Assembly: GCA_905221605.1 (NCBI GenBank)
Contig: CAJNDS010002838.1
Location: forward strand, 199,716-263,715
DNA: 64,000 nt
Direction of reading: 5' to 3'
Source: Symbiodinium natans
Lineage: Eukaryota; Sar; Dinophyceae; Suessiales; Symbiodiniaceae
Made by a program: the position numbers and the translations under genes. Below are positions 24,070 to 49,148 of the stretch, piece by piece (the first letter of the stretch is position 1; each line of letters starts with the position of its first letter). A model generated the notes under the pieces. That model was given only the letters and a program-made list of their open reading frames with translations, had not been told where the DNA came from and did no database searches.

Positions 24070-24171
24070 GTTCAAGAGTTGGCCGTGGACTCAAGCTTCT
24101 CCTCAGGGTTCACAGACCCAACCGAGCAATACATCTACTTGGTCCCAGATAGTGCCTCGGAGCAGACGGAA
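24070..24171 (+). CDS. Exon: GFxD-YLVP module
   Basis: Frame reads 'VDSSFSSGFTDPTEQYIYLV' then PDSASEQTER. It is the first clear GFxDG plus YLVP pair reading left to right. An acceptor CAG precedes 24070; the donor is uncertain. Confidence 0.6.
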
Positions 24172-24249
24172 CGTTGCCTTAGAGTGATTGGGGTACTTTC
24201 ATTAGAAAAGGGGGGCTCTCTCTTTCCATGTACGAGAAGTCTCGCCCAG

Positions 24250-24297
24250 GTTCTGGCTACGCCTTCAAGCGTGTGTCTACAAGCGACTTTGACGTCG
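24250..24297 (+). CDS. Possible exon: RV-strand module
   Basis: After CGCCCAG the frame reads 'GSGYAFKRVSTSDFDV', similar to the GKVVRFDLxxF strand. It would follow the 24.1-kb exon in repeat order. Confidence 0.42.
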
Positions 24298-24299
24298 GT

Positions 24300-25969
24300 G
24301 GGCTCATCCAAACCGCCACCTTGTCGTACACGACCGGGTTGCCAACACATGGGCATGCTCATGCTTACCTTGCCTGCCAAAGAGTTGGAGTATGTTTTTC
24401 TCACCGAGAATTGTTTCTAAGCCTCACGAGTGAGTGTCGAAGTCACTGAATTAGCGACGTGACATGAAGTTCGATGAAGAGAGGGAGGGCGAGCGGAGAA
24501 GGAAAGGAAATCGCGAATCCACTGGGTGTTTGCTTGTCGCTGCCTGACAGGCCTTTTGCCAGGATCGAACGCAAACAGAAATACGCGGTGCCCAAACATG
24601 ATTGGGATGATTTAGTCTCATACGGCCAACCAAACCAGCTGCGTCGCCTCCAAAAAAGTCACGATGGGACATTTGGCACGCTGTTTGATGGGGATTCGGC
24701 GCGCCATGCGCCAAACACCTTCCACGTCCAGATCCTCACATGCTTGTGTGAGTGAAGCCATGTATGATATCAGATTTCACGAATACATTGAGAATCCTGT
24801 TCATCCCATGGCTTCATTGCGCCTGCTCTTTAGGGAAGGGGGTTTTACATACATGATTCTTCACGGGGCTTAAAACACAAAATTATGGAGAATTCCATGT
24901 CAATATGCCGCCACCTTATCAGGCCCTGGTTGCTTGTGGGGAGATTACCAAGATCCCCCAGAGTTTAACGCAACAGTTGCAGAAGCTATATTTTTAAGGG
25001 TGGCTGAAGACGTGCGTTGTTTGAGGCTGGCAGCTATGTCCGGCAAAGCTCCTGATCTCACATATAGTCTGCCAGGAAAAACCTGTGGAGAGACCAAAGC
25101 CCCAAAGCTAAAAATCGGATTGAGCTGTGGCTCCTGAATCCGTGTTTTCTCCCTTTGTTGAAGAATGGGCACTGGTTAGCCTACATGTGGTTGCTGGCAT
25201 GTTTCAAGCGCAGGCCTTCAGCCTGAAGCCTGAGTTCTGCTAAGAAGTGAGATTTGCCCTACCACCTCCGTGGGGCACAGACCCTGACAGAGAGGGAGAA
25301 GTGACAACCACCCAGAAGTAAATTCCACCGGTCGGTATGATATGCAGGCACAGGGAAAGAGTAGGAGTAGGTATTTAGGGTTACTCGGTCTTTGCCGATT
25401 TAGACATCAGAGCTTGAGGTAAGAGCCTGATGCGACGTAGCAGTTCGATCCCAAGCATGTATATTCAGGAAGCATTTCGGGCAATGATTTAGAAGCGGCG
25501 GACTGAGATTTCCAGTATGACTGCATCTTAGTGACTTAGTGCGTGATCGCGAGATTCAAGTACATGCCAAACATCCGAAGAGTAACGCAGAACATTGGCA
25601 GAGTTCGGTCAGGAAGAAAGGAATCAGGAATTACACTCAGTCTATCTTAGAATAAAGAGAGTTGGATAGGGAACGGTTCCATGTCTGTATGTAAAGCTTC
25701 TTCATCCTTGGCACGAGATTGCGAGTTTTCTGAATCGTGACGACAGGAGCTACATGGGTGGTTTTGTTGCCGGCGAGTATGCGCAGCTTGCATTTTGTTG
25801 AGATGCTGCAGTGGGTGTGGTGTTGATGACAGCATAGCTTCCACAGTTGCAGCAGAAGAGCGCAGAATGCAAAACATCTGGAAGTCTCCTGTGCCTCGGT
25901 CTGGTGAATGGGCGCCCATTACAATCTGGTGGGAAGATTCTTCGATTCACGCCAATTAATTTCACTGAG
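24300..25969. other. Probable intronic DNA
   Basis: No strong exon. At 25925-25966 the frame reads 'SGGKILRFTPINFTE', which fits the VRFDL module. It abuts the better-supported exon at 25970 in another frame, so both cannot be used with a normal intron. Confidence 0.35.
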
Positions 25970-26060
25970 GTACGCGTTTCCTGGCATCTGGTCCCAGGGC
26001 GTCATCAGCAGAGTAGACACGCTTCTTTTTGGCACTGTCAGTGAACTGGACCTGAAAGCT
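25970..26060 (+). CDS. Exon: YLVP, VRFDL and LDL strands
   Basis: After CTGAG the frame reads 'YAFPGIWSQGVISRVDTLLF' then 'GTVSELDLKA' and stops at a GTCGAG donor. All three strands fit the repeat. The end is phase 0, as is the next exon start at 26188 ('DGRLRDF'). Confidence 0.68.
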
Positions 26061-26187
26061 GTCGAGCCTTGGTCAGTTTCATGAGAGGGGTTATCCGGTG
26101 AATCTGGGAAGAATCCGCCGTAAACCAGTGTGCATGATGATCACGGATGATGGCCTCGGACCTTGTGATTCTTGACTGACGTTTCAG

Positions 26188-26236
26188 GATGGGAGGCTGC
26201 GGGATTTTTCTGGCGGGTACTACTTTGAGGAGTGGG
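26188..26236 (+). CDS. Exon: GFxDG module
   Basis: After TTTCAG the frame reads 'DGRLRDFSGGYYFEEW' plus one base of a Gly codon, then a GC donor (GCACCT). Joined to 26378 it gives EEW-G-YLVPYQD, restoring the repeat across a 141-bp intron. Confidence 0.7.
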
Positions 26237-26377
26237 GCACCTCTGACAGCAGCAGGAGGGAGGCTTTTGGATTTATACGGCGGCATTTGAAAAAAACTGT
26301 CGTGCAACATACCCCTGGTTGTCCAGACGTCGGGGCTTTCCTTTCACCTGGGCTCCTTCCTCCTTGCTTCATGCCAG

Positions 26378-26400
26378 GTTACCTGGTGCCCTACCAGGAC
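26378..26400 (+). CDS. Exon: YLVP module
   Basis: After GCCAG the frame completes the Gly codon and reads 'YLVPYQD', then a GT donor (GTGTGG). Tiny but exact fit in phase with the preceding exon. Confidence 0.68.
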
Positions 26401-26493
26401 GTGTGGATCTGTGTAGCAGTGTAGAACATAGAAGCTATGGAACACAAGGGCCAACGTGGATCAGTTGGTTGCGTTGGCTCCATGTTTCTTCAG

Positions 26494-26543
26494 GATGCAG
26501 TTGCCGAAATGGTTTGCAGTTTGTATCCTCTGTCGATTGACGG
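26494..26543 (+). CDS. Possible exon: VRFDL-like module
   Basis: After CTTCAG the frame reads 'DAVAEMVCSLYPLSID' in phase 0, as required after YLVPYQD. The match to the strand is weak. Confidence 0.35.
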
Positions 26544-26549
26544 GCAAGT

Positions 26550-27370
26550 CTTTCAGCTTGGGTTACTCAGCTAGTCAGTGGCTAGTTGTTTACAATATCA
26601 CTAGAAAAGGTGTGTCGGAATGAGAGCCGGCAAAAGGGCCTCTGCAAGTGTGGGGCAACTTTCCTGTATTATCCTTTCTGATTCTAGCGTGGAAATGCTG
26701 GAAGGACAACTCCAACGCGCCTAGTGACAAGGCCATCGCTGGTTTGTAAATGTCGCTGCTTTGCTCATCGAGCGGAACGCTGAGCAGTGAAGACCGATCT
26801 CAGATTTCACAGCACGTCTCATCTGCGACACTCACAGTCTGCAGCTGCCCATTCTGAGCAACAGGATCCACCAAAAGCCGTACTCAAAACAACGCATGAA
26901 CATCACCCCAAACAATACTCAAGCCGAGTAGATTCCAAATATGATCGAGAGCCACGTGTCCAGTCCGGCTTTCCTTTTCATCTGTGAAAAGGTGGTCCGT
27001 TTCAAGCTGGCATCCTTTACTACAGCAGACGTGGTGTCCCAGTTGCACTAGTTTGGCTGGATTATCGTGTGTTGAGATCTAAGTCGAGGCGTTCGTGCCC
27101 TTGAGAAAGTCAAACCTGCCACAGTTTGCATTGTGCGCTAGAAAGGCCTGGCCTTCCACATGCATGTTCTACAAGTGCGCACTTTATCGCTTGAACAGCC
27201 GTCCGAATCGTGATCCTGATCAGTCTGTGGATGCCGCAAAGCTGCTTGTTTCGCAAGGAAGTTCTTCAGCTGTCCGCGTCAGCAGGCTTCATTACTGGGT
27301 TTGAGGACAGCAGATCCTTTGTCGTGTAGGGTGGCCCGACGATGGCATGCTTTGGAAGGTAGATGCTGGA
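26550..27370. other. Probable intronic DNA
   Basis: Only a weak candidate strand at 27257-27298 ('GSSSAVRVSRLHYW'). Nothing else seen. Confidence 0.35.
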
Positions 27371-27376
27371 TGTCAG

Positions 27377-27421
27377 GACGGAAGGTATGGCTATCTGATG
27401 GGGAGCTCGAGCGTTGGCCTC
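27377..27421 (+). CDS. Exon: DG-YLVP module
   Basis: After GTCAG the frame reads 'DGRYGYLMGSSSVGL', a near-consensus DGxYGYLxP segment with Gly for Pro. The donor was not identified with confidence. Confidence 0.55.
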
Positions 27422-27424
27422 AGA

Positions 27425-28026
27425 CGCGTTTGGTTCTGGACCGAGCTTTGCTCCAAGATGTGAGCTCTGCCCATGCTAGGGCCTGCTAGGGGCACCTTAT
27501 CCTTCCTATACATGTGCACGTTGCATCATGTTGCATCTCAAGACTTTCAGGTGGTGACCTTGTCCGGTTCAGGTCTTGCAGTCCTGTGTTGTCCTTTCGC
27601 GCAGCACGAGAAGGGAGATCACTTCAAGCCAGGTTGGACATCTTCGGTGAAGAGCAGACGCTGTCCTTGCTGCTATGACTAGAAGTTAAGTGACATCTTC
27701 GCCAGCTGACAAAAAGATGTTTCAGATGTCCCTCTTTTCAAAGTGGAAAGCCTTCTGCTCAAACCCTACAGGAACAGGAGCATCCTAGTTCCCTTGCCAT
27801 CTGCTTCAATATGCCATCAATTCTTCTTTTGCTTACCAGCGTTTGTCAGCCAAGGAGCAGTGACCTCAGCAACGCGGTCAGCGGATCTCTGAAGGTGGGA
27901 GGGAGACTGCTACTTTCAGACTTGGTTTCTTCTGCTCGCCATTTGCAAGTTGTTGTTGGGTGAAGAGGCTTGGCATAGGCTCGGCTGGCTACGATTGAGG
28001 CTTTCCAGCGGTCTCAGTGTTCCAGG
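27425..28026. other. Probable intron
   Basis: A possible tiny strand after TTTCAG at 27551 ('VVTLS') is the only hint of coding. Confidence 0.35.
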
Positions 28027-28065
28027 TGGGAAATTACGCCTACATCTTTGCCGAAGATGGCAGGG
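28027..28065 (+). CDS. Exon: YLVP-like module
   Basis: After TTCCAG the frame reads 'VGNYAYIFAEDGR', then a GT donor (GTAGCG). Phase 0 at both ends. It joins in frame to VHVDLATF at 28237. Confidence 0.72.
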
Positions 28066-28236
28066 TAGCGCTGGCCTCAGCTACAGTCCTCCGAGTTGTG
28101 GCCCCAAAAAAGTGGCCCCATAACTCGCAACTGCCAGCACAACCGCTTTCAACGTCTCCCCTTATGATACGTTAGACGCTCTCATGCCCAGTGCAATGTG
28201 GTACGTGCCAATGTTTGAGAACTCGGTGTGGCGCAG

Positions 28237-28291
28237 GTGCATGTGGACCTCGCGACATTCAACATCTACGACGTTTTTGACGTGAACACTG
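28237..28291 (+). CDS. Exon: VRFDL and LDL strands
   Basis: After GCGCAG the frame reads 'VHVDLATFNIYDVFDVNT' plus one base, then a GT donor (GTTCCA). It ends in phase 1, the phase used before the GFxDG module. Confidence 0.75.
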
Positions 28292-28832
28292 GTTCCAGCG
28301 GCCCTCGTCCTGCAGTTCTTGTGGGGGACAAGGTCATAGTCAAAGACGCGTCCGTGGGACCTTCCTTCGGCAGGATTTGCCAGGACCTTGGGAAACGGGA
28401 AGCTCAGATCGGAAAGCAGCGAAGACGCGGCCGTGTTTGCACATTGAAGGGCCGTGGAGCAGAGTGTAGTTCGATGTAGCGTGACTGCGTGGGGCTGTCG
28501 GCAGGACTGGATGTGTCCTGGACTGCACAGCAGAAACCAAAAAAACCAGTGTCGGCTTTGGTGTCGAACCCTCGAGACCCGCTGTCGAGAGGGAATGTTT
28601 TTGCATGAATCAGTTCTCGTGTTCATGCGGCGCATAGCTGATCTCTAGAGCCCTCAACACACCTCACGCCCACGCCGCGTGAACTTCCAAAGTTGGATGG
28701 GGAAGGTAGAGCCATGGGCCTATTGGCACTTGTTTTCAAACTTCAAGGCACCGGCAGCACACCCTACGAGAGCAGTGCCTGCAAGAGGCCGCGCGTGCTC
28801 CTCGTAAACGTGTTTTGGCTCGCTTCGGGTGC
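28292..28832. other. Probable intron
   Basis: No repeat-protein signature in any plus frame. Confidence 0.35.
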
Positions 28833-28965
28833 GCATTCGTGTCTGAGGGTGTTGTGTTGCCAGCTGGATACTACCAGCAAGACTTTGTAAGTTGGTTTGA
28901 GCGGTACAAGAGGGATGCCGATGGTTCCGACATGTTCCGAGCATTGCACTTGGACTTCTGGACAG
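28833..28965 (+). CDS. Exon with variant YLVP repeat and insertion
   Basis: Frame reads 'FGCAFVSEGVVLPAGYYQQD', then FVSWFERYKRDADGSD and 'MFRALHLDFWT'. The pieces line up as GF, VLP and RFDL strands with a charged insert. Borders are uncertain; a GC follows at 28966. Confidence 0.5.
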
Positions 28966-29012
28966 GCGTCTCTCTACATCATGACGGAGCCTCAAGCAAA
29001 CGACTACTCAAG

Positions 29013-29067
29013 CTTTACAAGCATCTTCACAGACGATATGTACATTTACTTCTTCCGCCAGTCGCAG
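29013..29067 (+). CDS. Exon: GFxD-YLVP-like module
   Basis: After TCAAG the frame reads 'FTSIFTDDMYIYFFRQS'. The pattern FTxxFTDDxYIY is clear; Pro is replaced. The intron before it would be only about 47 bp, so the start may differ. Confidence 0.5.
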
Positions 29068-29324
29068 CTCTGATTCAATGCAAAGGAGGCAGTCTTGGAG
29101 AATTCGGTTCGTCGGAATGTCGGCAGATTGGGCAGATTGTTTATGTGCTCTCGTCCCAATCAGCATCTTAGGTACGGCCTCTTTCGCTCCGAGCTGCTTC
29201 TTGACAGCACGAGCGCGCTGCCCAGCCAGATGATGACTCTCCCTGCGGCTGCCCTTCTGCAGACAAGAAAGGAATGTGCACTCACACGCAGAGGCACCGT
29301 CTCTGTTTCCGACACCATTCACAG

Positions 29325-29377
29325 AAGTCCATGGCATGTCACAGCATTCCAGGCTGTTCTGGACAGTAGCTACTTTG
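29325..29377 (+). CDS. Exon: VRFDL and LDL strands
   Basis: After TCACAG the frame reads 'SPWHVTAFQAVLDSSYF' plus one base of Gly, then a GA donor (GAGGCG). It joins in phase to GIVDGNYGYLLP at 29451 over a 73-bp intron. Confidence 0.6.
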
Positions 29378-29450
29378 GAGGCGTCTTGGCCGCAAGACGT
29401 TAATGCGCTGCAGCAAGAGAATCGCGAGAAGCTTTGTAGAATTCGCTGAG

Positions 29451-29521
29451 GTATCGTCGATGGCAACTATGGCTACCTTCTGCCTTCTTTGAACCATGCT
29501 GCACCTCAACTGCAGCCCCAA
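29451..29521 (+). CDS. Exon: GFxDG and YLVP modules
   Basis: It begins with two bases of a Gly codon and reads 'IVDGNYGYLLPSLNHAAPQL' to QPQ, then a GT donor (GTATGG). The end is phase 0 and fits the next exon at 29606. Confidence 0.82.
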
Positions 29522-29605
29522 GTATGGCTGAGTCGAGTGTTTGTGGCAATGCGAATGAATGCGATGTGGTGAGTCACCGTTGTCACCGTAGTCACCGTAG
29601 CCGAG

Positions 29606-29663
29606 ACCGTCGTTCGCTTTCGGCTGGAAACCTTCACCTTCGTCGATTCATTGGACCTGAAGG
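29606..29663 (+). CDS. Exon: VRFDL and LDL strands
   Basis: After CCGAG the frame reads 'TVVRFRLETFTFVDSLDLK' plus one base of Gly, then a GT donor (GTGCCT). One of the best matches to the consensus. Confidence 0.87.
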
Positions 29664-29962
29664 GTGCCTACGTGCCGTGACTTGAAAGCGCCTTTTGGGG
29701 AGCATGCTTGATACTTGAATGGCATGGGCTCCTCGCGCTGTAGCTGCGCCCCGAGGAGGGGGAGCCTTCGACGGTCATGAACAACTGGTGGGGCTCGGGC
29801 CTCGGCTCCGAGATGCTCAGTCTTTGTAGATGTACTAGCGGCACATTGCGACAGCAGAGACCGAATTTGAGAGCTGGTCGTACAACACCCTTACTAAGTG
29901 TTTCTATTTTTTACACCTTCGATACCTGCTTTGTCCATCTGCAGTTCTCTGATTGACCTCAG

Positions 29963-30010
29963 GTGGGTTTGTGCATGGAGGGCACGGCTACCTTCTGCCA
30001 AACTGGGATG
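29963..30010 (+). CDS. Exon: GFxDG and YLVP modules
   Basis: It completes the Gly codon left by 29663 and reads 'GFVHGGHGYLLPNWD' plus one base, then a GC donor (GCTGCT). Phase fits on both sides. Confidence 0.82.
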
Positions 30011-30358
30011 GCTGCTTGCCCCAATTAAGGAGGCCCTTCGTGAGGGTTGATTGGGGATCCTGGGGCGCTTGAGGCGTGATGTCCTCCGACAGCCTTGTTG
30101 CGGCCTGGTGTTCTCTGCGGGGTGTTTCTCATGCGGCGCTGAAAGAGCACAAGAGCCAAGTCAGTAAAGAAACGGTCAGAAAGACAAGCGCCCATCCAGA
30201 AACTGTCCTCAAACCCTCTCGCAGATGCTGCAGTTCTCGTAGATCCAGCACGAGCAAGAAGTAGCAGCAATGCCTCTGGACCTCTAAGATCCAACGGCCT
30301 CTAAGGGCTTGTGTGCTCCCGAGTTCTCTTGGGCCCAAAAGATGCAAGATCTTTGCAG

Positions 30359-30437
30359 GTATATTTCCGCAGTTCCAGTTGGATGACTTTTCCACGGTGG
30401 TGTTACTGGACCTCACGACGGTGGATACAGATTTGAG
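30359..30437 (+). CDS. Exon: VRFDL and LDL strands
   Basis: It completes the Gly codon of the preceding exon and reads 'IFPQFQLDDFSTVVLLDLTT' then VDTDLR. Very close to the consensus RFxLxDFSTVxxLDLTxxDxDLR. The exact donor is unclear (GA at 30438 or nearby). Confidence 0.78.
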
Positions 30438-30606: not shown

Positions 30607-30923
30607 GCACATGTCTGTTGGTCTAAGGACATTCAGAAAAGGAGTCTTGAATGGCAGCTTGGCCGAGATGTACCCAGGGACTCATAGACACCTTGAAGGA
30701 CGAAGCTCACCTGCGAAATTTGAAGTTGCATATTCGCCACCAAGGGCACAGCAACATTTAGAGAAGCCCACGAAAAGCCAGATGAGCGGCTTGCAAATCT
30801 GGAAGAAGATGGAAGACCAGTAGAACACCAAATAAAGCAGACCCGTACAGGACACACCAGTAGAACACAGAGGGAGCACCAAGAAAGATGCATAGTGAGC
30901 ATCGTGAAGCTCAGATGCTTCAG

Positions 30924-30982
30924 GCGACCACGTCTACCTGGTGCCACACGACGTTCCCGACACCGGCCTGGGCTCCTGCAAG
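30924..30982 (+). CDS. Exon: YLVP module
   Basis: After TTCAG it completes Gly and reads 'DHVYLVPHDVPDTGLGSCK', then a GC donor (GCGTGC). It joins in phase 0 to VARVNLEG at 31143, giving a typical GKVARV-like joint. Confidence 0.77.
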
Positions 30983-31142
30983 GCGTGCGGGCGCCGCGCA
31001 AAGCGCTTAACCGCTTACCTCTCATGCATAAAAGCAAGCGGAGCACGCGGGCACTGTTGGGCTTGGTGTTTTGTTGTTGAGTTACAAACACCGTATCAGA
31101 CGATGCCGCACTGTTGTGAGCGGCTGAATTTGCGCATTGCAG

Positions 31143-31214
31143 GTGGCCAGGGTGAATCTGGAAGGGAGCTTTGACGCCAGCTCCGTGACGGTCTGGAACA
31201 TTGACGGCACCCTG
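31143..31214 (+). CDS. Exon: VRFDL and LDL-like strands
   Basis: After TTGCAG the frame reads 'VARVNLEGSFDASSVTVWNI' then DGTL, with a GT donor (GTTGGA). Phase 0 to the next exon GFSDGFTDG. Confidence 0.77.
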
Positions 31215-31580
31215 GTTGGAAAAGAAAGAGCATCGGGTGGATGCCCAGAGTGGGTCTGCGCAAGTACTTCCAAGCCTGAGAATACTGAGCCTGACTGTAC
31301 GTTTAGTTGCGCACGTGGTTGAACCGGGGCTGGTTTTCTTCTCAGTGTCTCGGCGGCGCTGCGCGAGCTTGGTATCCTCGGTCCGGTGCAACGCCGGCAC
31401 AAAAAAGACAAGCTCACAGTTCTAGAGAACACCTCGGTCCGATCAGTGGCCGCAGCATGCGCAAGCGAGGCTGGGCATCGGATGGAGAAGGAGGGACGTA
31501 TTGTGGAGGCCGCGGCTGCGAAAAGGAGCTCAGACCGAGAAACCGCGACCGATCTTTCTGTGTCTTGAGGTACTTCGCAG

Positions 31581-31629
31581 GGCTTCAGCGATGGATTCAC
31601 CGATGGCACCTACATGTACATGCTGCCAG
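31581..31629 (+). CDS. Exon: GFxDG and YLVP modules
   Basis: After TCGCAG the frame reads 'GFSDGFTDGTYMYMLP' plus one base of Gly, then a GC donor (GCATGA). The 56-bp intron leads to an exon that completes the codon. Confidence 0.82.
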
Positions 31630-31685
31630 GCATGACCCTCTGGAATTCTCAGATGTTTCCTCCAGACGTCCAAAGTGCGATGCAG

Positions 31686-31730
31686 GTTCTTCCGGCACCC
31701 ATCTGGCTCGCTTTTCCTTCGTGGATTTCG
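31686..31730 (+). CDS. Exon: VRFDL strand
   Basis: It completes Gly and reads 'SSGTHLARFSFVDF' plus one base, then GC (GCAGCA). The same frame stays open to 31942 and includes 'VLTTSSYDGLAG' near 31830, which looks like the following LDLS strand. The exon may therefore be longer. Confidence 0.7.
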
Positions 31731-31942
31731 GCAGCACTGCAGCTGGGAATCCAGCTGCAGTTGCGTGGGTGGCACCGGCCCTGGCATTACGACAGAGCCC
31801 AAACACGCTGACCTTGACAGATCAATGTGCAACAAAGGTGTTGACAACGTCTTCCTACGATGGCTTGGCAGGCCAACCGGAGAGGGCAGAATCACGAGAT
31901 GCTCTAGTCCTAGCCGTAGAAGAGGCAGAGAAGAATGTGTAG

Positions 31943-32705: not shown

Positions 32706-33151
32706 AATCCATATACAATCTGCTTTTATACGCCGTCGCCCTTGACTGGCCGGCCTACCAGTCTCGCTCAAGATGGGCCGGTTGCTGTTGAGATACCTCC
32801 CTTCAAATTTCAGGCCGATTCGAGCCCTTCCTTGTAAATGGCGCCCACAGCTCTGCGTAGGGTTCGGTTTTGCACGATGTGGCGGCTGGATGCGGCCTCT
32901 CCCCCGTGTTGGATTGTGCTTGCTGTCCTCCGTGTGCAGCTTTGCGTGCTTGCTCGAAGTCACCTGTTGCTGGGCGCCGAAGCAATCAGCCCCCATGGTC
33001 CCCGGCCAAGGACGGGCGAGGGGGGGGGGAATCCTGCCAGCTTTCCTTGGGCGTTTGCCCTTCCGATGCAACAAGACGACCTGTAGTTGGATTTGCTGGC
33101 TGGTATGCTCCGAGGCGTATTCCTTCTACGCCGCAACCTCCAGCCTCTCAG

Positions 33152-33195
33152 ATGTTCTCCTGGTTAGCGACATGGACTACACCAAACTTTATCGG
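33152..33195 (+). CDS. Possible exon: YLVP variant
   Basis: After TCTCAG it reads (D)'VLLVSDMDYTKLYR' then a GT donor (GTGTGC). The pattern LLVxxxxxxKLYR matches YLVPxxxxGKVVR. Confidence 0.45.
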
Positions 33196-33589
33196 GTGTG
33201 CCAGGAGCTTCAGACAGTGGCATGCACATGGAACTTGCATGCTTGGTCGGCAAGTATGTTCAGCTTGGCAGTCGGAAAGCATTTAATTGACTTCTGGCAT
33301 TTGTTGTTGAGACTGGAAACGAGTTGCCGTAGCTTTCACAAGAGCACATGTGCGTTGACCTGTGTTGTGGAGGACTATGTGTGGCTTGCTTGCACGAGTG
33401 GGCAGGTGGATGTTGAACATAAATTGAACATGTTCAGCAGTTGGTGTTGCGTTTGCACTCTCATCCACGTGATTCTTGCCGGATAGCACCGCGGTTGTGC
33501 TTTTGCCTCTGAAGTTGAATGTGTTGAGAAGCGTGATGATTCGATGCCAGGCCTGTGTGCCTTCTACTGAGGTCGCCGGGCTTCTGCAG

Positions 33590-33660
33590 TGGTGTTACTT
33601 GGTGAGGGATGTCTCTCAGGTCGTGGACTTTTTCTCTTTCGCAGATGACCGTGGCAGAGT
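33590..33660 (+). CDS. Possible exon: YLVP and VDF strands
   Basis: After CTGCAG the frame reads 'WCYLVRDVSQVVDFFSFADD'. WCYLVR resembles GYLVP. Borders uncertain. Confidence 0.4.
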
Positions 33661-33895
33661 TTGGGAACGAGTTTCGCAGCGCATGGTGCAAGCTGCAGGC
33701 ACATCTCGGCAGAGTGCAAGATGGTGAACTAAGGTTTCCAGCAAGACCATTGCGTATTCCAACAGTGACTACACGGGTTTGACCAGCAACTCGGTGATCT
33801 AGCCCTATGCCGCAGCCACGTTACTCATGTTTCCACGGCATGCATCAGTTGCCAGAGCCTTGCAGCATGTCGGAGAGATGGATGCATGTGCCGAG

Positions 33896-33969
33896 GTGCT
33901 TTTGCCGATGACACCTACATCTATCTCATTCCACACCAGCGTTCCGTGTTGTTCCGCTATGCGCCCTTG
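33896..33969 (+). CDS. Exon: GFxDG, YLVP and RF strands
   Basis: It starts with two bases of Gly and reads 'AFADDTYIYLIPHQRSVLFR' then YAPL, with a GC donor (GCAACA). Phase 0 to NTVSFVDL at 34202. Confidence 0.78.
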
Positions 33970-34201
33970 GCAACAATTCTGGAGATACATGCAAACGCTC
34001 AGTAGCAAACAACCGTCAAGACTGGTCCGTGGTGCCACTGCCCTGCCGTTACTGGGACTGCGGGTTCCTTCCATGAGGTGGTTTTGCCATGCTTTGCCGA
34101 TCTTGGTCTTTGTTCGTTGTTCTTCTTCGTGTGCTTCATCAAGCGGAACCAAACCTTGTCATGCATTTGACTTCACCAGCGATCAGAGTCAGGATCTCCA
34201 G

Positions 34202-34247
34202 AATACAGTATCCTTCGTTGACCTGCCGACGAGTCAGGCATACAAAG
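34202..34247 (+). CDS. Exon: LDLS strand
   Basis: After CTCCAG the frame reads 'NTVSFVDLPTSQAYK' plus one base of Gly, then a GA donor (GAGGCT). It joins in phase to GFVHGSYSYLVP at 34411. Confidence 0.75.
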
Positions 34248-34410
34248 GAGGCTTCGGCAAGTTTTCATGTGATTGTACTTGTACGGACGAGCAAGGCAGC
34301 GGTGTGAGTTCATGAGACATGTGGTCACCGCTGTGTCGAATATAGTCTGCCACCTCGTTAGGCAAAGTTCCTTGCTGCATTGGTTGTCTGTGATTTGCTG
34401 ATCTTGGCAG

Positions 34411-34506
34411 GCTTTGTGCATGGAAGTTATAGCTACCTTGTGCCGGCGTCCGGCAACGGTCTGCTCCTCCGTGTCGACTTGAACGAGTGGCATCCCTCGC
34501 TTCTTG
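34411..34506 (+). CDS. Exon: GFxDG, YLVP and VRFDL
   Basis: After TGGCAG it completes Gly and reads 'FVHGSYSYLVPASGNGLLLR' then VDLNEWHPSLL, with a GT donor (GTGAAC). It carries three modules uninterrupted. Confidence 0.8.
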
Positions 34507-34765
34507 GTGAACGTGTTCAGAGTACATCGGATACCTGAGAAGATGTCAGGATATGTGAAGTATGTCAGGATACGTGAAGATATGTGAGGACATGTGAAGA
34601 TGTCTGAAGATAGGTCGCAAAGTCTCGCGGCTCAGGTGGGTTCAGAGCACAGACCTCTCGCTGGTGTCTGGCAATTTGATTCTCGGCTTATCTGGGCTGG
34701 TAGGCAGTTAAGCTTTGTGTTGTCGTGTCGTTGATGGAGTCGTGGGGTGCTACTTGGTGTGCCAG

Positions 34766-34856
34766 GAGAAGTTTCTTCGGTGGATTCCACGATGACAGCT
34801 ATGGTTATCTTGTTCCGGGCTTACTTGAGCCCCAGGCGCTGCTTGGATCTGACACG
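34766..34856 (+). CDS. Exon: GFxDG and YLVP
   Basis: Frame reads 'RSFFGGFHDDSYGYLVPGLL' then EPQALLGSDT, with a GT donor (GTGCCG). Phase 0 to the exon at 34900. The exact start (34766 or 34769) is open. Confidence 0.8.
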
Positions 34857-34899
34857 GTGCCGCCTTGCTTCTTGACCATAAGCTCACAAGCTTTCTCAG

Positions 34900-34987
34900 G
34901 TCCCGGCAGAGTATGGAGTCGTCGCGCGCTTCCAGCTTGGAAGCAGCTTCGGTGACATCATGGCACTAGACGTAACGGCGATCGACA
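34900..34987 (+). CDS. Exon: VRFDL and LDLS strands
   Basis: After TCTCAG the frame reads 'VPAEYGVVARFQLGSSFGDI' then MALDVTAID, with GTGTAC following at 34988. The donor phase does not match the next exon perfectly. Confidence 0.8.
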
Positions 34988-35076
34988 GTGTACCTGGGAC
35001 TCAGAGGTTTCAGGTTTTTCGCGTCCGGATTCTTTGACAATCCTTGGTCTTGATGTTCAGTGGCTGCCAGAGCTAG

Positions 35077-35110
35077 GACTTGCGGAAGTTCCGGAATGGT
35101 TTCTCAGACG
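35077..35110 (+). CDS. Exon: GFxDG
   Basis: After GCTAG the frame reads 'DLRKFRNGFSD' plus one base of Gly, then a GC donor (GCCGCT). It joins to TWGYLVPY with the Gly codon restored. Confidence 0.85.
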
Positions 35111-35192
35111 GCCGCTTGATTGCACGAAGAGGAGCTGTCAGAACACGTCAACTCTCAACTACGTCTCGAGTCGGAATCTTTTCACTGCAGAG

Positions 35193-35266
35193 GCACCTGG
35201 GGGTACCTTGTGCCCTACCAGACCCAGTCGAACCAGGCCTCGGGGAAGGTCGTGCGCTTCGACCTT
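35193..35266 (+). CDS. Exon: YLVP and VRFDL
   Basis: It completes Gly and reads 'TWGYLVPYQTQSNQASGKVV' then RFDL, with a GC donor (GCCACC). The closest match to consensus in the window. Phase 0 to ATFSTVEVLDV. Confidence 0.92.
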
Positions 35267-35360
35267 GCCACCCAACTCATATGAAATGCAGCGAGATGCC
35301 CGTCACAGCGATCAGCTATGTTCAGCTCAGATTTTTTTCTCCAGGCTTTGCGCAGCTAAG

Positions 35361-35416
35361 GCTACCTTCAGCACCGTGGAAGTGCTCGACGTGGCTGCAC
35401 AGAATGCAGATGCCAA
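35361..35416 (+). CDS. Exon: LDLS strand
   Basis: After GCTAAG the frame reads 'ATFSTVEVLDVAAQNADAK', then a GA donor (GAGAGC). Phase 0 to EFNDGFHDG. Confidence 0.88.
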
Positions 35417-35506
35417 GGAGAGCCCATGACCCAACAACTCAACAGCAAACTTCTGAAGAAAGCATGGGCTCCAAAATCACAGACCCTGTGAAAGCCTCAT
35501 CGGCAG

Positions 35507-35540
35507 GAGTTCAACGATGGATTCCACGATGGCACATTCG
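35507..35540 (+). CDS. Exon: GFxDG
   Basis: After CGGCAG the frame reads 'EFNDGFHDGTF' plus one base of Gly, then a GT donor (GTGTCG). The next exon supplies the rest of Gly and YLVP. Confidence 0.88.
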
Positions 35541-35792
35541 GTGTCGGGCTTATTTCGCCACGTTTTCCCTTTGCCGTAAATTGCCAGTAACCTGTCATGT
35601 CGCGGCATGTCGTCGCTTTCTTGATTGCAACTCTTGTTTTGCACGCACATTCAGTGTCGGCTTGAGGGCATAGTAGGGGCATCTTGTCAGAGACCACACA
35701 ACAGCAGCATCTTTGGCAGCTGTGTCGTGTTCTTACCATATCGCCCGCAATGGGCAGTGACATGGTGCTGGCAAGGTGCTCACTTGTCTGAG

Positions 35793-35888
35793 GTTACTTG
35801 GTTCCAGCCAGCACTGGAATTATCGCACGATTCCCGCTCAGTACGTTCCTTGCGTCAGAAGTGACGTATCTGGATGTGTCCGCGACAG
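35793..35888 (+). CDS. Exon: YLVP, VRFDL and LDLS
   Basis: After CTGAG it completes Gly and reads 'YLVPASTGIIARFPLSTFLA' then SEVTYLDVSAT plus one base, with a GC donor (GCTCAC). It covers three modules with no internal stop. Confidence 0.88.
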
Positions 35889-36965: not shown

Positions 36966-37394
36966 TTAGGGCATCACATCATCACAGGCCTTACGTACAA
37001 TCCGAGCGGACTGCTTGCCTCGAGGGGCAGGACTTCCAGACGCTTGGACCTGAACTGCTTGAGAGCGGAGCGAATCTTGCCGCTTGTTGCCGTGCAGAAG
37101 AGTCTCCCTTTTCTGGCCCAACAGTATTCTCCTTGTGGCTTTGGCGCACGGGCTTGGCTCTGGTTTCTGACTTGAGATGCCAAATGAAAGCCGGTGGAAG
37201 CCCGAGTAATTCGGGCACGCCGTTTTGTTGCTTGCATTGCGCATGTCAAACACAGGAACTATTCCGATGTGCTGCCAATGTCCGTTACCAGTGTTGGCGG
37301 TGTAACCCGGCTTTATTCGTCGCATGTTGACTATCATTGACTCCTTGACCTTTGTTATCCTTTGAAGCTGCCCGCTAGAGCCGCAGACGGGCAG

Positions 37395-37445
37395 GTCTTC
37401 AGCGACGACCTTTACTTGTACACGTTGCCAATGTCTTTCATGGAG
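37395..37445 (+). CDS. Exon: FxD-YLVP module
   Basis: After GGGCAG the frame reads 'VFSDDLYLYTLPMSFME', then a GT donor (GTACGG). Phase 0 to VHRMDLATF. Confidence 0.82.
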
Positions 37446-37514
37446 GTACGGCCTTCTGACTAGAGGGGCACTCATTGAATATCGGTGATGCGACGTTGGA
37501 GACCACTTTGAAAG

Positions 37515-37581
37515 GTTCATCGAATGGACTTGGCAACGTTCCAGGTTTATGGGTACCTGGACCTCTCCACACGTGACCTCG
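37515..37581 (+). CDS. Exon: VRFDL and LDLS
   Basis: After GAAAG the frame reads 'VHRMDLATFQVYGYLDLSTR' then DL plus one base, with a GC donor (GCTACA). Phase 1 to the exon at 37755. Confidence 0.86.
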
Positions 37582-37754
37582 GCTACATTTCATTTCGAAG
37601 CCTTCCTTGACATTGCCAAGTACAGCGACTTCTTGGCAGTCTGCTAGCTGTTGTGTTGATCGGACTTCTTGTCCTTTGTGTAGGTAGAGAGACTGCAGCA
37701 AGAACGGTGTGATTGCGAACCGACCAAAGAATATCTCAAACCATTGATTCCAAG

Positions 37755-37805
37755 TTGGTCTGGCCGGTGCCGGCTTTTCGGCTGGCCTTTCGGATGGAGC
37801 TTTTG
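37755..37805 (+). CDS. Exon: GFxDG
   Basis: After TCCAAG it completes a Val codon and reads 'GLAGAGFSAGLSDGAF' plus one base of Gly, then a GC donor (GCCACT). The next exon restores Gly-YMLPG. Confidence 0.83.
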
Positions 37806-37896
37806 GCCACTCGGCTCTGTGCTCCACACGGCTGTCTTTTGATTGCACGTGCCCTCTTGAACGATCCCGCTGGAGCCCATCATTTTTTGGCCCGAG

Positions 37897-37946
37897 GATA
37901 CATGCTTCCCGGGTATAGTGGCTCGAATGTGGTACGCTTTGATCTT
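37897..37946 (+). CDS. Exon: YLVP and VRFDL
   Basis: After CCGAG it completes Gly and reads 'YMLPGYSGSNVVRFDL', then a GC donor (GCCACC). Phase 0 to ATFSLPAPAVLDLS; the same boundary is used at 35266. Confidence 0.9.
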
Positions 37947-38064
37947 GCCACCTTGCTGCGCATTGGTACAAATTGGTACAGTCAGCTACTAGACAAGCCT
38001 ACTAAGCGCGGTGGCCAGGTTGTTTGAGGTTTGAGCAGGTCCGTGTCAGCAGCTTGCTCCTGAG

Positions 38065-38109
38065 GCAACCTTCTCACTTCCTGCCCCAGCAGTGTTGGAC
38101 CTAAGCCAG
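38065..38109 (+). CDS. Exon: LDLS strand
   Basis: After CTGAG the frame reads 'ATFSLPAPAVLDLSQ', then a GC donor (GCGGGG). Phase 0 to VDSNLRSFSGGF. Confidence 0.87.
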
Positions 38110-38172
38110 GCGGGGATGCCACAGCCCCACAGCTACAACTTTCGCAGACTGGACCTCCGCGTCTGGACCCAG

Positions 38173-38241
38173 GTGGATTCGAACCTGAGAAGCTTCTCGG
38201 GTGGCTTTCAAGGTGGCGGCAAAATTTTCCTGGTGCCCGAG
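38173..38241 (+). CDS. Exon: GFxDG and YLVP
   Basis: After ACCCAG the frame reads 'VDSNLRSFSGGFQGGGKIFL' then VPE, with a GA donor (GAGACA). Phase 0 to ETGYFVEMSADF. Confidence 0.88.
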
Positions 38242-38345
38242 GAGACATGTCTAGAGACGCTCAGTGCAGTCCCCGAGTTGGAAACTAGAGGGAAACGCAT
38301 GCGCTGTGTCTTTTCATTCGAGCTTGTCTCGCCATGTCTACACAG

Positions 38346-38534
38346 GAGACTGGATACTTTGTAGAAATGAGTGCCGACTTCAGCATCTCGGCACAGCACA
38401 GTTCTCTCAGCACTGCGGCCGCTTGGCATGCGCCTAAAAGACTGCCTGGAGGTAGCGGAAGTGTGCGATATCTGGATCTGACGTTGATTGACGCTGCCCT
38501 GGCAAACCTCAAACCTGGATTTGTCGACGCTCAT
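38346..38534 (+). CDS. Long exon: VRFDL, insert, LDLT and GFxD
   Basis: After CACAG the frame reads 'ETGYFVEMSADFSISAQHSS', an Ala-rich insert, then 'GSVRYLDLTLIDAALANLKP' and GFVDAH, with a GC donor (GCCCGC). Longest exon found. An alternative reading would splice out the insert from a GC at 38391. Confidence 0.82.
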
Positions 38535-38617
38535 GCCCGCACTTTGGTTCTCTTAGACTTGAGCGTTCCTCATCCTTGCGCAAGCTTTGCACAGCGCTGC
38601 ATGTCTTTAAATCACAG

Positions 38618-38702
38618 GAACTAGCCGGTGCTTTCGCATTCCTGGCCTCCAAAGCGGACGCATCGTACCAAAACACGGGCAAGATCGTGAAGATTGATCT
38701 TG
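38618..38702 (+). CDS. Exon: YLVP-like and VRFDL
   Basis: After TCACAG the frame reads 'ELAGAFAFLASKADASYQNT' then GKIVKIDL plus one base, with a GT donor (GTAGTT). Phase 0 in, phase 1 out; both fit neighbours. Confidence 0.86.
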
Positions 38703-38954
38703 GTAGTTTCTCTGTCGCTGCGTGGTGGCAGAGTGGTTCGAGTGGAGCGGAGTTCGGGAGTATTGCTATTTTTCGAGGAGATTTCAACAGGTGTGAGTCT
38801 GAGAGTGCGTGTCGGCTGTGTGCCCATGGTGTGCCCACCGTGTGCCCGCGTCTGGATTCGGCTGTGTTCTTGCAGTTTTGAGAAAGAATGGCAGTGAGGG
38901 CTCGATTCGTATTGGGATTGTTGTGAGACTTCTGCTCCACGACCCGATGCCCAG

Positions 38955-39029
38955 AGGACAGTGTTCTGGACCTGGAAGCCGTGTCATCGCAGTACGTTGC
39001 CTTCTCTGCCACGTTTTCCGAAAACTCTG
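38955..39029 (+). CDS. Exon: LDLS and GF-like
   Basis: After GCCCAG it completes Glu and reads 'DSVLDLEAVSSQYVAFSATF' then SENS plus one base of Gly, with a GC donor (GCCTGC). Confidence 0.8.
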
Positions 39030-39308: not shown

Positions 39309-39381
39309 TTTCACTGGCTTTGCGTACGGTTCGCACGATGGAACTTATGGATACCTGGTCTCTGTGCCCTGGCCGAACTCT
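39309..39381 (+). CDS. Exon: GFxDG and YLVP
   Basis: Frame reads 'FTGFAYGSHDGTYGYLVSVP' then WPNS, with a GT donor (GTCTGT). DGTYGYLV is textbook for this repeat. The start phase does not match the preceding exon exactly. Confidence 0.75.
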
Positions 39382-39558
39382 GTCTGTTTTTGGTCTCTAG
39401 CAAGTATGGCAAACGTTCATGCAGCTATTGCACCACGCAGCAAGTGGCCATGTGATGCTTGACGCGACAATTGAAAACAGCTGTCCCGAACACCTAGGGG
39501 AGGGTTTTGCGGGAGAGAATATACATTGGACCGTGTCTCTTGCTGTAGTGGCTTCAAG

Positions 39559-39624
39559 GATTCCTCTCCCAAGATCGTGCAGTTCGACTGGGGCCAACAA
39601 CTTTTCGCCGTCGTCGACGCCAGC
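39559..39624 (+). CDS. Exon: VRFDL and VVD strand
   Basis: After TTCAAG the frame reads 'DSSPKIVQFDWGQQLFAVVD' then AS, with a GC donor (GCAACC). Phase 0 on both sides. Confidence 0.82.
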
Positions 39625-39730
39625 GCAACCTTCCCCAGCATGTATGGCAGCCTCGTCAGCAGAACAGCGCGTTCAACGCTGTGCGCAGTGGTGCCCTCTT
39701 GTCTGTGAGAAGCAACAAAACTGCATGGAG

Positions 39731-41490: not shown

Positions 41491-41641
41491 TCCCGAAGCC
41501 TGTCTGACAAGACCTTCTCTGCTGTTGCCTTCTCAATGTCACAAAGGCCCTTTCCAATCACATTGAATGAGGCATTCCTCAGATACAGGCAGATCTCTGA
41601 AGAGAGCTTGTAGCGAAATCGTCGTTCAGACAATCTGCAAG

Positions 41642-41711
41642 GACGCTTTGTGAATGTGAGCTTCATCATGAGATCCAGCAGTCCCAGCGGCTGGAGTGGC
41701 GCCTCCTACAG
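41642..41711 (+). CDS. Possible exon: GWSGA module
   Basis: After TGCAAG the frame reads 'RFVNVSFIMRSSSPSGWSGA' then SYR, with a good GT donor (GTAGGA). Variant of the GDGWNGA module, in order after the 41.4-kb exon. Confidence 0.48.
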
Positions 41712-42559
41712 GTAGGAATTCGTTTAGAAAGTTTTACGATCTTTTTGGGCTTGGCTCCTGAGGTTTCGATGATCTTCGGCGTTCAGGGCTTTCCTGTCTC
41801 CTGTTTCCTCGCCCCAGCTGCGAGCACACCACGACGTTGGCGCATGTCAGGCTGAGGCGGGATGACCCACGCCGAGACCTGGCTGAGCTTTAGAGTGCTG
41901 GCTTGGAAGCACCAAGCGCAGCCCAGACTGCATCTGCGAATTGTCCAGGTCCTGAGAGAACTTGGACAGGTACGTTGGCGGATGGTTTCTTCTTCCAGGA
42001 GCCTTGATCAGTTTTTAGCAGTATAGCAGTGTGTCCAGTAGTCCGAGTGTGTTCCAGACGTGGACTCGAGGGTTCAGGGATATTCAACAGCCACACGATA
42101 CCAGTAGAATCACCTGCCTCTGCAGAGACTCTGCGTGGATGGTAGCTGTGTGATTCTCCCCGAATCGTTTTGAGGAGGATGTCATTGCCGATACCAGGTC
42201 TGGAGACTTCTTGCTGCTTGGCGGGTTAGAAGTTTGGTGCCATGAGCCTAAGTCGCTGACCGTAGCCCTTTTCAGATCTGCGTAGAGTGCAAGTGTGCAG
42301 TCGAATGTCACATATGCCGATGCCATTTTCCAATATGTTTGCTTGCTGGACCCTGTCCTCAGGGAGCTTGAGATCACACCAGGCGCGGGCAAAGCGGCTG
42401 AGAGACGTGTGCTTTTAGTGGGAATGCTTGGGTGCTGCACGCACAGTGTGTGGTGAGGGGTTATTTTGTGTGTTTGGGGTGATGGTGAAACCGCGTTACT
42501 ACATCTCCATGCGCAGCGTGCAGCGTCGAAACCATGTACGGGTGAGTTTAATGCTCAGG
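41712..42559. other. No firm exon
   Basis: No repeat signature seen in either strand. Confidence 0.35.
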
Positions 42560-42935
42560 GGATTCTCCTTGGATACTTTCCTGTTGGGCACTCCGGGGAT
42601 TCTCTGTAAACACTCGAAGACTTCGAAGGTTGGGCACTCCAGGGATTCTTTGGGGATACTCTGGGTTGCACTGCAGGGCGTTCTCTGGGGATACTCTTAG
42701 GGCTGGGCAACCTACTAGGGATTCTATGGAAATACTCTCGGGTTGGGCGCGCCAGGGATTCTCTGAAAAGTACTTTTTGGGCTGGGCACTCTAGGGAGTC
42801 TTTGGTGATGCTCTGCACTCTGGGGCATGCTCCTGAGGTTGGGCACTCCAAGCATTTTGTGGGGATGCTCTTGGGGCTGGACACTCCACGGATTCTGTGG
42901 GAATACTTTGCGGTTGGGCATTGCTGGGCACTCCG
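42560..42935. repeat. Degenerate minisatellite, unit about 44 bp
   Basis: Eight or so diverged units of GGTTGGGCACTCCAGGGATT followed by CTCTGGGGATACTCTTG. Indels between units. Confidence 0.85.
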
Positions 42936-45480: not shown

Positions 45481-45568
45481 TTGACAACGCGCACAACATC
45501 TTCGACGTCAATGTCGGAGCCTCGAGAGTAGTTCAGCAGATTGTGCCATATTCTGCCGATGCTCTGTG

Positions 45569-45661
45569 GATTTCCCCTTCAAGGAAGACATTCCCCAACT
45601 ACTGGGTGCTCACCCTTCCGGCCTCTTTACAGACGACGTGGCCCACTACATCATCTCCGAG
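45569..45661 (+). CDS. Exon: GFxDD-YLV-like module
   Basis: Frame reads 'DFPFKEDIPQLLGAHPSGLF' then TDDVAHYIISE, with a GA donor (GACAGT). GLFTDDVAHYII matches GFxDDxYxYLV. The left border is uncertain. Confidence 0.6.
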
Positions 45662-45925
45662 GACAGTTGATAGACTTGCCATGCTTGAGGGTTGTCAGCC
45701 TGAGAGAATGCCCGTGTCGCGAGAACACTCAGGATTCCGCCATTGTGGTCCGTTGCTTGGCCTGAACAGAGGATTTGACGGTAGGAAGAGAGGAAGACGG
45801 TAGGACGAAGCGAAGGCCATCGAAGGCCATGCCCGGATCTAACGCTGGGTTTCCCTCGAGTTCTCCCTCGAAGGACGAGAGATAGCTCCGACGAGCGCCT
45901 TCTCCAGCGTAGACCTGCACCAGGC

Positions 45926-45997
45926 GCTCTCTGCCCCCTCTCTCTGCTCTCTCTCTCTCTCTCTCTGCTTTCTCTCTCTGCTTTCTCTGTTTTCCAG
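45926..45997. repeat. CT-rich polypyrimidine tract before a splice acceptor
   Basis: Runs of CTCTCT end in TTTTCCAG. It creates an Arg/Glu-rich minus frame that is not a gene. Confidence 0.85.
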
Positions 45998-46041
45998 TGC
46001 AGAGAGGGAAATGCGAACATTTTGCATGCCTTCCTTGTCAG

Positions 46042-46144
46042 GGCGGGCTGTTCGAGGGCTTCCGCGCTGGCTTTGCCACGAGCCAACATGCTGTCCTTGT
46101 GCCCTGGAACTCAAGCCCGGCCGCCCAGCGCAACCGCGCCTCCG
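46042..46144 (+). CDS. Exon: GFxDG and YLVP
   Basis: After TTGTCAG the frame reads 'GGLFEGFRAGFATSQHAVLV' then PWNSSPAAQRNRAS plus one base of Gly, with a GA donor (GAAGTT). The next exon completes SG-RLAAF. Confidence 0.86.
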
Positions 46145-46224
46145 GAAGTTTGTTGCGAATCCCGAAGCCGCTGAGCTGAGCCATGCTGAGCCATGCTAAC
46201 GATTTCCAACCTGCTGCGCCTTAG

Positions 46225-46281
46225 GCCGGCTCGCCGCGTTCCACCTGTCCAACATTGAAAACCTCACCGCGCTGAGCCTGG
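46225..46281 (+). CDS. Exon: VRFDL and LDLS
   Basis: After CCTTAG it completes Gly and reads 'RLAAFHLSNIENLTALSL' plus one base, then a GT donor (GTACGA). Phase 1 to the exon at 46389. Confidence 0.86.
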
Positions 46282-46388
46282 GTACGATACGAAGCGGGTT
46301 AGATGCGAGAAATGGATCAGATAGATGCGCCCCGGCTCGCGGTGAGCGCCGCGCAGAGCAAAATTGCAAATTCTGTTTTGATGTGCAG

Positions 46389-46493
46389 TTGCTGTGCTTA
46401 GGAACCTCGCCGACTCCGACTCCGGTCTGTCGGACTTCACCAGTGGGTTTGCCTCAGAGGACTGGGTGTTTTTGGTGCCTCGCTTGTCCTACA
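46389..46493 (+). CDS. Exon: GFxxE and YLVP; last clear exon
   Basis: After GTGCAG it completes Val and reads 'AVLRNLADSDSGLSDFTSGF' then ASEDWVFLVPRLSY plus one base, with a consensus GTGAGT donor. The gene must continue, but no equally good exon follows. Weak candidates are 'GDFEAIFTANLECA' near 46555 and 'GAWVLRQSS' near 46635. Confidence 0.86.

Positions 46494-49099: not shown

Positions 49100-49148
<49 letters not shown>

Follow-up and report, generated by a model that had tools for sequence, protein, structure and literature searches.

A dinoflagellate gene spliced from about fifty micro-exons for some twenty-one predicted beta-propeller blades

Introduction

Beta-propellers in general are well known, and the solved folds closest to the models of the proteins discussed here are the seven-bladed propellers of virginiamycin B lyase (Vgb) and YncE, at an identity of 11–17%. 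Klosneuvirus and tailed-phage propellers predicted in BFVD have a similar fold as well (best E 4.0e-13), with an identity mostly of 10–18%, and are matches of fold only. Here we describe a gene on the plus strand of a 64,000-nucleotide stretch of the Symbiodinium natans genome (contig CAJNDS010002838.1, positions 199,716 to 263,715), referred to as the window, whose own coordinates are used throughout. The gene lies at about 24–46.5 kb and carries the same 50-residue GFTDG-YLVP repeat as proteins from a Sumerlaeaceae bacterium (P0024), a Methanoregulaceae archaeon (P0030) and Phytophthora (P0046). Such bacterial, archaeal and protist proteins mostly have seven units (60 examined), whereas the window gene has about 21 units and 51 introns.

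Comparison with a second described system, the mosaic adhesive trimer (MAT) fibres of Bdellovibrio, bears on function. The binding tips of these fibres vary, and one tip has been shown to bind prey glycans (PMC10769870). In the 9 of 36 homologues that weakly match the MAT N-terminal domain, the propeller sits where MAT proteins carry the binding tip; no such N-terminal domain was detected in the window gene, the NCBIfam scan having covered the homologues only.

Results

Earlier motif scans had revealed GF.DG..YLVP-like peptides on the plus strand at 18–48 kb; their seeds were taken from the window, which makes them circular and usable as a lead only. Six-frame fragments of the window were scanned with a 50-position hidden Markov model (HMM) of the repeat unit (consensus GFSGGFTDGRYGYLVPYKNGYSGKVARVDLQNFSTSGVTVLDLTAVDPAL), built solely from homologues and containing no window letters, although these homologues had themselves been retrieved with a window-derived query (400 residues, the clearest pieces joined). 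Above 4 bits, the HMM matched the plus strand 38 times and the minus strand not once; 35 of the 38 plus-strand matches fell within 24,097–46,516, and a few overlap or probably occur by chance. The four-part repeat of the original prediction was recovered as a four-strand unit consisting of strand A (GF.GGF), a turn ((T/H)DG), strand B (YGYLVP), strand C (GKVVRFDL) and strand D (V.VLDL), one unit corresponding to one blade.

The match to the family profile was reproduced by spliced alignment with a purpose-written program, in which the profile cycles repeatedly along genomic DNA and introns are allowed. The plus strand at 23–48 kb scored 422.9 bits, compared with 26.7 for its reverse complement, 21.1 when the sequence was reversed, 16.0–22.6 for five other stretches or strands and 15.8–25.0 for 24 first-order Markov shuffles. 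With introns disallowed, the best score in 24–40 kb was 45.7 bits. The six phase-consistent runs claimed previously were scored singly with 30 flanking bases at either end, the last one lengthened to 46,516, and each exceeded the best of its 40 shuffles: 63.1 versus 19.6 bits for 29325–30437, 63.0 versus 14.8 for 30924–31730, 51.8 versus 18.6 for 33896–34506, 101.5 versus 17.8 for 35077–35888, 80.1 versus 19.0 for 37395–38702, and 36.3 versus 17.6 for the run from 46042. Both the six runs and a single plus-strand array of phase-matched micro-exons are upheld by these data.

Splice signals were evaluated at 24–40 kb in a setting where the data choose the signals; it carries no bias towards AG followed by G and is hence the preferred test. 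With G[TCA] donors fixed, AG as the acceptor yielded 452.9 bits and the other 15 of the 16 dinucleotides 221.7 to 353.3; with the AG acceptor fixed, GC as a single donor yielded 363.3 bits and the other 15 of 16 donors 179.5 to 304.6. When either signal, AG or G[TCA], was displaced by 1–4 bases from the junction, the score fell from 452.9 to at most 384.5 bits. Across the array, reading frame, codon phase and splice signals are mutually consistent, as expected if each exon completes the codon phase left by the one before it. In the conservative model the 51 donors are GC (26), GT (18) and GA (7, penalised by 1.5 bits), and the AG acceptor is followed by G in 41 of the 51 introns, a preference partly built into this model. 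The 33 of 51 GC and GA donors compare with the 25–74% that a review gives for Symbiodiniaceae introns (PMC11453091); the GC/GA-AG introns that occur beside GT-AG ones in this group are found here, clearly for GC and with GA not singled out. Taken with the closest named eukaryotic relatives, these intron signals point to Symbiodiniaceae, to which Durusdinium also belongs. The repeat, strand, frame, splice register and homology of the window gene are established.

The conservative model comprises 52 exons and 51 introns, with 3,015 coding bases (1,005 residues), exons of 15–115 bases (median 58) and a median intron of 160 bases. It contains about 21 repeats; under a permissive model the count rises by one or two weak ones (up to 23). 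The micro-exon design proposed originally stands, and the count of about 60 falls to 52, or to 53–58 in relaxed models; these models (second profile) and the extension scans rely on a profile with window units in it and are used solely for annotation and for showing absence. The array end, first placed at 46493, moves to 46,516, where the last repeat ends with strand C, directly followed by an in-frame TAG at 46,517. With the profile that includes window units, no repeat signal above controls appeared at 16.0–24.07, 39.7–46.05 or 46.5–56 kb; because of this, the term giant holds for the 22-kb gene span and not for the roughly 1,000 detectable codons, and the last two repeats are joined to the rest by inference only. 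Scores at 1–14 kb (28.2 bits versus at most 24.3 in 8 shuffles under one setting, 41.7 versus at most 45.4 under the other) were not used. A search for a spliced-leader relic gave no match in the window at up to 3 mismatches.

Stops allowed at a cost of 2 bits brought gains of only 1.1 and 4.6 bits with two profiles, two stops each and in different places. The alignment model avoids stops by construction, and the small gain is informative while the absence of stops is not. GC content by codon position was 0.575, 0.434 and 0.643, compared with 0.529 for the region. The array looks more like coding sequence under constraint than like decay.

A search of 5.8 billion proteins, scoring only the roughly 8,000 candidates that share most words (7,992 in the first search), returned 60 proteins, 59 of them at E ≤6.1e-5 (best E 2.6e-56). 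Because so few candidates were scored, the taxonomic range is a lower bound; it includes at least a Sumerlaeaceae bacterium, a Methanoregulaceae archaeon, Phytophthora, Aphanomyces, Durusdinium trenchii, Effrenium voratum, Ascophyllum and two IMG/VR contigs that encode relatives. The name of P0080 is that of a Trinity transcript, which makes expression of at least one relative probable. Seven strand-C copies are present in 45 of the 60 homologues, and in many a strand-D piece precedes the first blade, consistent with a fixed small blade number per ring, closed by a shared blade. AlphaFold2 predicted a seven-bladed propeller for homologues P0007 and P0062, and four-stranded blades around a ring were found in both models and their PDB fold matches, extending to the window protein by homology only. 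The beta-rich, propeller-like fold proposed earlier is therefore the one predicted for these two homologues. Since most homologues have seven blades per ring and the window gene about 21, the most likely fold of its protein is a chain of about three seven-bladed propellers.

Named families cover little of this group. Three pieces of the window protein matched no Pfam family, and no Pfam propeller family (WD40, Kelch, YVTN, NHL, GyrA_C) exceeded its curated cut-off in them. The Pfam family reaching the most homologues was found in 4 of 36; GyrA_C occurred in 2 of the 36 at E ≤0.01 (P0001, 25.1 bits versus a cut-off of 27), and a precomputed database label of GyrA_C (PF03989) is attached to 4 of 85 homologues (P0001, P0006, P0074 and P0076). 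NCBIfam gave 7 weak matches among the 36 to a nitrous-oxide reductase model (best 1e-5). Two PHROGs families of unknown function match part of the repeat at E ≤1: PHROG 30079 (phrog_30079; 78 positions) in 7 of 10 homologues, mostly weakly (best 9.6e-13, P0001), and PHROG 25033 (87 positions) in 2 of 10 (best 1.6e-08, P0007). A tblastn search of 50,697 INPHARED phage records with P0007 found nothing, and solved relatives by sequence reached only E 0.14 or worse. The motif, in five spellings, was absent from the 5.39 million open-access papers searched, and nothing recognisable as a GFTDG-YLVP repeat family emerged in the portions of the open literature that the searches returned. As judged from these profiles, no named family covers the repeat, though propeller hints pre-existed in the GyrA_C labels; WD40, Kelch and other propellers are possible distant relatives. 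The description of the repeat as undescribed thus holds in that no named Pfam or NCBIfam family covers it consistently, and fails in that the family is widespread and kept in databases as hypothetical proteins and short PHROGs families. Six homologues of 807–1,350 aa (P0063–P0065 and P0069–P0071) have the same propeller repeats, and five of them bear a precomputed ALK/LTK glycine-rich label, confirmed for P0063; we take these proteins to resemble those of large viruses.

Among dinoflagellates, Durusdinium P0056 and P0079 are partial models from near-consecutive loci, with 4 and 5 strand-C copies. This suggests that gene annotation in this group appears to break such genes up. P0056 aligns with three consecutive blades of the relaxed window model (47.6% over 143 columns). 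A search of the S. natans genome itself (759 Mb, 2,543 contigs; 4 candidates scored) indicated at least two loci, the sister copy (C2174) having seven units in two large exons plus a doubtful 16-base exon. Long open frames lie upstream of this copy on the same strand (L007 866–5515, minus), one weakly resembling fibronectin type III (E 0.0016, 19 bits versus a cut-off of 25); together with the propeller they could perhaps form one large secreted protein ending in it. A bacterial genome scan with P0012 found one locus, covering residues 42–143, ahead of the repeats.

Growth by exon duplication, as first envisaged, is disfavoured because intron pairs are at chance level, the blades are dissimilar and outside matches score higher. 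Blades shared intron position and phase in 13 pairs, versus 12.6 expected with G weighting (p 0.47) or 8.5 under a uniform null (p 0.09), and conserved intron positions were rejected, the 51 introns scattering over 31 of the 50 unit positions. Similarity between window blades does not exceed about 52%, and the seven blades of the sister copy lie in few exons. Each of the relaxed model's 24 pieces had a better-scoring partner among 85 outside proteins than among the other window pieces, the outside set being much larger. On these sequence comparisons, the simplest history would be that the blades duplicated first and introns were gained later. Intron-creating elements have been described in dinoflagellates, as stated in the review (PMC11453091).

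The whole spliced array runs from 24082 to 46519 (plus strand, as are all its blades), with the stop at 46517–46519 visible as LVRV*. Just upstream, VPTSGSTLFRVDAETMTQ at 23862–23915, between AG and GC, is half-blade-like and a candidate of the permissive model only. The array start (24070–24458, 12.8 bits) consists of a strand VQELAVDSS, whose VQEL piece is in the relaxed model only, and blade 1 (FSSGFTDPTEQYIYLVPD...); the conservative model adds a doubtful 15-base exon at 25379–25393. Also in the spliced model are blade 2 (25747–26063, two exons; 16.5 bits at 25971–26069), blade 3 (26188–27033; exons 26188–26236, 26378–26400, the weak 26449–26463 and 26992–27033; 14.6 bits for KVVRFKLASF), blade 4 (27258–27924, five exons; 12.5 bits for GCQDGRYGYLMGS) and blade 5 (28000–28300, two exons). 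A possible extra blade (SIFTDDMYIYFF..., 28997–29380) is weak and appears in the most relaxed model only (intron cost -6.5).

Blade 6 (29451–29663; GIVDGNYGYLLP / TVVRFRLETFTFVDSLDLK) was recovered by the HMM, the spliced model and the run test, as was blade 8 (30628–31214; GDHVYLVPHD / VARVNLEGSFDASSVTVWN). Between them lies blade 7 (29963–30434; GGFVHGGHGYLLP / FQLDDFSTVVLLDLTTVDTDL), at 24.8 and 23.4 bits, followed after blade 8 by blade 9 (31581–31768; GFSDGFTDGTYMYMLPG / HLARFSFVDFGS; 25.1 bits), both also spliced. The HMM and the spliced model agree on blade 10 (33041–34250; GAFADDTYIYLIPH / TVSFVDLPTSQA), whose first exon at 33041 is weak. Blade 11 (34411–34695; GFVHGSYSYLVPASGNGLLLRVDLNEW...) reached 25.8 bits and blade 12 (34772–34989; GGFHDDSYGYLVP / VVARFQLGSSFGDIMALDVTAIDS) 19.6 and 18.1 bits, and both are in the spliced model. 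The best-conserved, blade 13 (35077–35408; FRNGFSDGTWGYLVPYQ..SGKVVRFDLATFSTVEVLDV), scored 34.6 bits, is spliced and shares 65% identity with Durusdinium P0056 over 49 residues. It is followed by the spliced blade 14 (35507–35888; FNDGFHDGTFGYLVP..TGIIARFPLSTF..EVTYLDVSAT), with 31.5 bits in its second half.

Farther downstream, blade 15 (37387–37581) is supported by the HMM, the spliced model and the run test, and blades 16 (37755–38109; GFSAGLSDGAFGYMLPGYSGSNVVRFDLATFS..VLDLSQ) and 17 (38173–38516; FSGGFQGGGKIFLVPEE / GSVRYLDLTLID) by the HMM and the spliced model. Blades 18 (38517–38988; GAFAFLASKADASYQNTGKIVKIDLGSFSV / VLDLEAV) and 19 (39309–39654; GFAYGSHDGTYGYLVS / KIVQFD), both spliced, scored 12.9 and 16.9 bits. 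Blades 20 and 21 (46057–46516) were recovered in the last run scored above, blade 21 ending in LVRV before the TAG.

Elsewhere in the window, 17 copies of GTTTAGG at 60657–60775 correspond to the TTTAGGG telomere repeat inside the contig; this repeat is reported for dinoflagellates in the review (PMC11453091). At 56400–60200, a block of about 3.7 kb with a GC content of about 25–30% holds tandem units built on CCTTAAAATCC, which from about 58.6 kb take the reverse-complement form GGATTTTAAGG; the block is perhaps a large inverted repeat. AGT is repeated 165 times at 15364–15860, and two similar tandem-repeat blocks (48594–49891 and 52273–53476) have near-identical consensus units, which suggests a local duplication. 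Open frames at 1172–2227 (plus) of the window and at L006 2204–3217 (plus) have motifs that resemble those of non-LTR retroelement reverse transcriptase.

Discussion

We consider it highly probable that the feature is an intact-looking nuclear gene for about 21 four-stranded beta-propeller blades, in about three linked rings, spliced from about 50 in-phase micro-exons. In the mechanism proposed, these micro-exons, mostly with GC or GT donors and AG acceptors, would be spliced into one propeller-chain protein, in which each ring would be closed by a strand D that lies ahead of the first blade and completes the last one. Several observations weigh against this reading. The splice model was computed from genomic sequence alone and the fold of the window protein rests on homology, while a count of 21 to 23 blades leaves a multiple of seven unproven. 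GT as a single donor ranked third (282.7 bits), below TG, and GA (247.3 bits) did not stand out. P0056 is among the 60 proteins behind the profile, which makes its match partly dependent on the model; for the splices between three blades it counts as support but not as independent evidence. A start codon, a signal peptide and an N-terminal domain all went undetected, with no Pfam family in the three forward frames at 15.0–24.1 kb, and the blades at 46 kb lie past a 6.4-kb signal-free stretch after blade 19. On the side of function, no ligand site was identified, Bdello_MAT_N was matched weakly by 9 of 36 homologues (E ≤0.001; best 34.5 bits, below the cut-off of 60), and the word propeller is absent from the MAT paper text (PMC10769870).

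Could the array be an artefact of low-threshold motif matching, produced by chance or composition? Single exons are short enough (median 58 bases) to raise the question, but every control scored about 400 bits lower and the strands split 38 to 0, so that this origin has a vanishingly small probability and is ruled out by the strand-specific HMM matches, the spliced-alignment controls, the splice-register test and the six-run shuffles. It is improbable, too, that a former propeller gene is decaying here as a pseudogene and is no longer expressed. Such decay would account for the weakly scoring blades (e.g., 1, 5, 8, 15 and 17), the stop-free exons were picked by alignment by construction, and the gene is known here from genomic sequence alone; however, AG and G[CTA] junctions are still in exact register, passing stops gains only 1–5 bits, codon-position GC is coding-like, and blade 13 shares 65% identity with its counterpart in another genus. 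A division into two or more genes, for example the 24.1–39.7 kb array and a short 46-kb piece, each with at least one propeller, is unlikely but deserves more weight. The 6.4 kb without signal between blades 19 and 20, the single seven-unit array of the sister copy and the several shorter gene models in Durusdinium and Effrenium all point that way. Conversely, the last blade stops after strand C like the C-terminal blade of many homologues, 19 blades alone are not a multiple of seven, and the two Durusdinium models (partial, from near-consecutive loci, both on a contig listed at 527,222 bases) resemble one split gene.

The role of the protein is less certain than its architecture. By analogy, we favour a surface or secreted binding or adhesive role, if at somewhat less than even chances, and the adhesive character first suggested is plausible; the protein would be exported to the cell surface and may act there as a multivalent binder or adhesin. 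Fibre-like, PAN or chitobiase C-terminal domains, or leaders judged hydrophobic by eye, occur in several homologues with a longer N-terminus: phage tail-fibre families of PHROGs are matched by P0005, the oomycete P0046 contains a PAN domain, and a chitobiase C-terminal domain is present in Ascophyllum P0072 and in P0073. These features argue against the alternative of an intracellular scaffold or enzyme like YncE or virginiamycin B lyase rather than an adhesin, as does the low identity of 11–17% to Vgb and YncE. In its favour, these two are the closest solved folds, the nitrous-oxide reductase model was weakly matched by 7 of 36 homologues (best 1e-5), and no secretion signal was found in the window gene; we hold it to be rather doubtful. 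More speculative, and improbable as a whole, is a scheme in which the chain of three propellers is exposed or secreted as a recognition module common to bacterial fibre-like proteins, viruses and protists, and in which micro-exons would let alternative splicing swap blades or loops and diversify ligand recognition.

The chain of propeller blades encoded by the window gene represents an unusual combination: a family that lacks a named domain model and spans bacteria, archaea, protists and viral contigs has a dinoflagellate member with about three rings of blades in about 50 exons. An apparently orphan dinoflagellate repeat is thereby tied to a widespread propeller family that has no consistent Pfam or NCBIfam model (36 members scanned). 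The analysis also indicates that a pure sequence test is able to recover splice signals without RNA, and the profile, fold and splice model that it yields are open to testing with transcript data.

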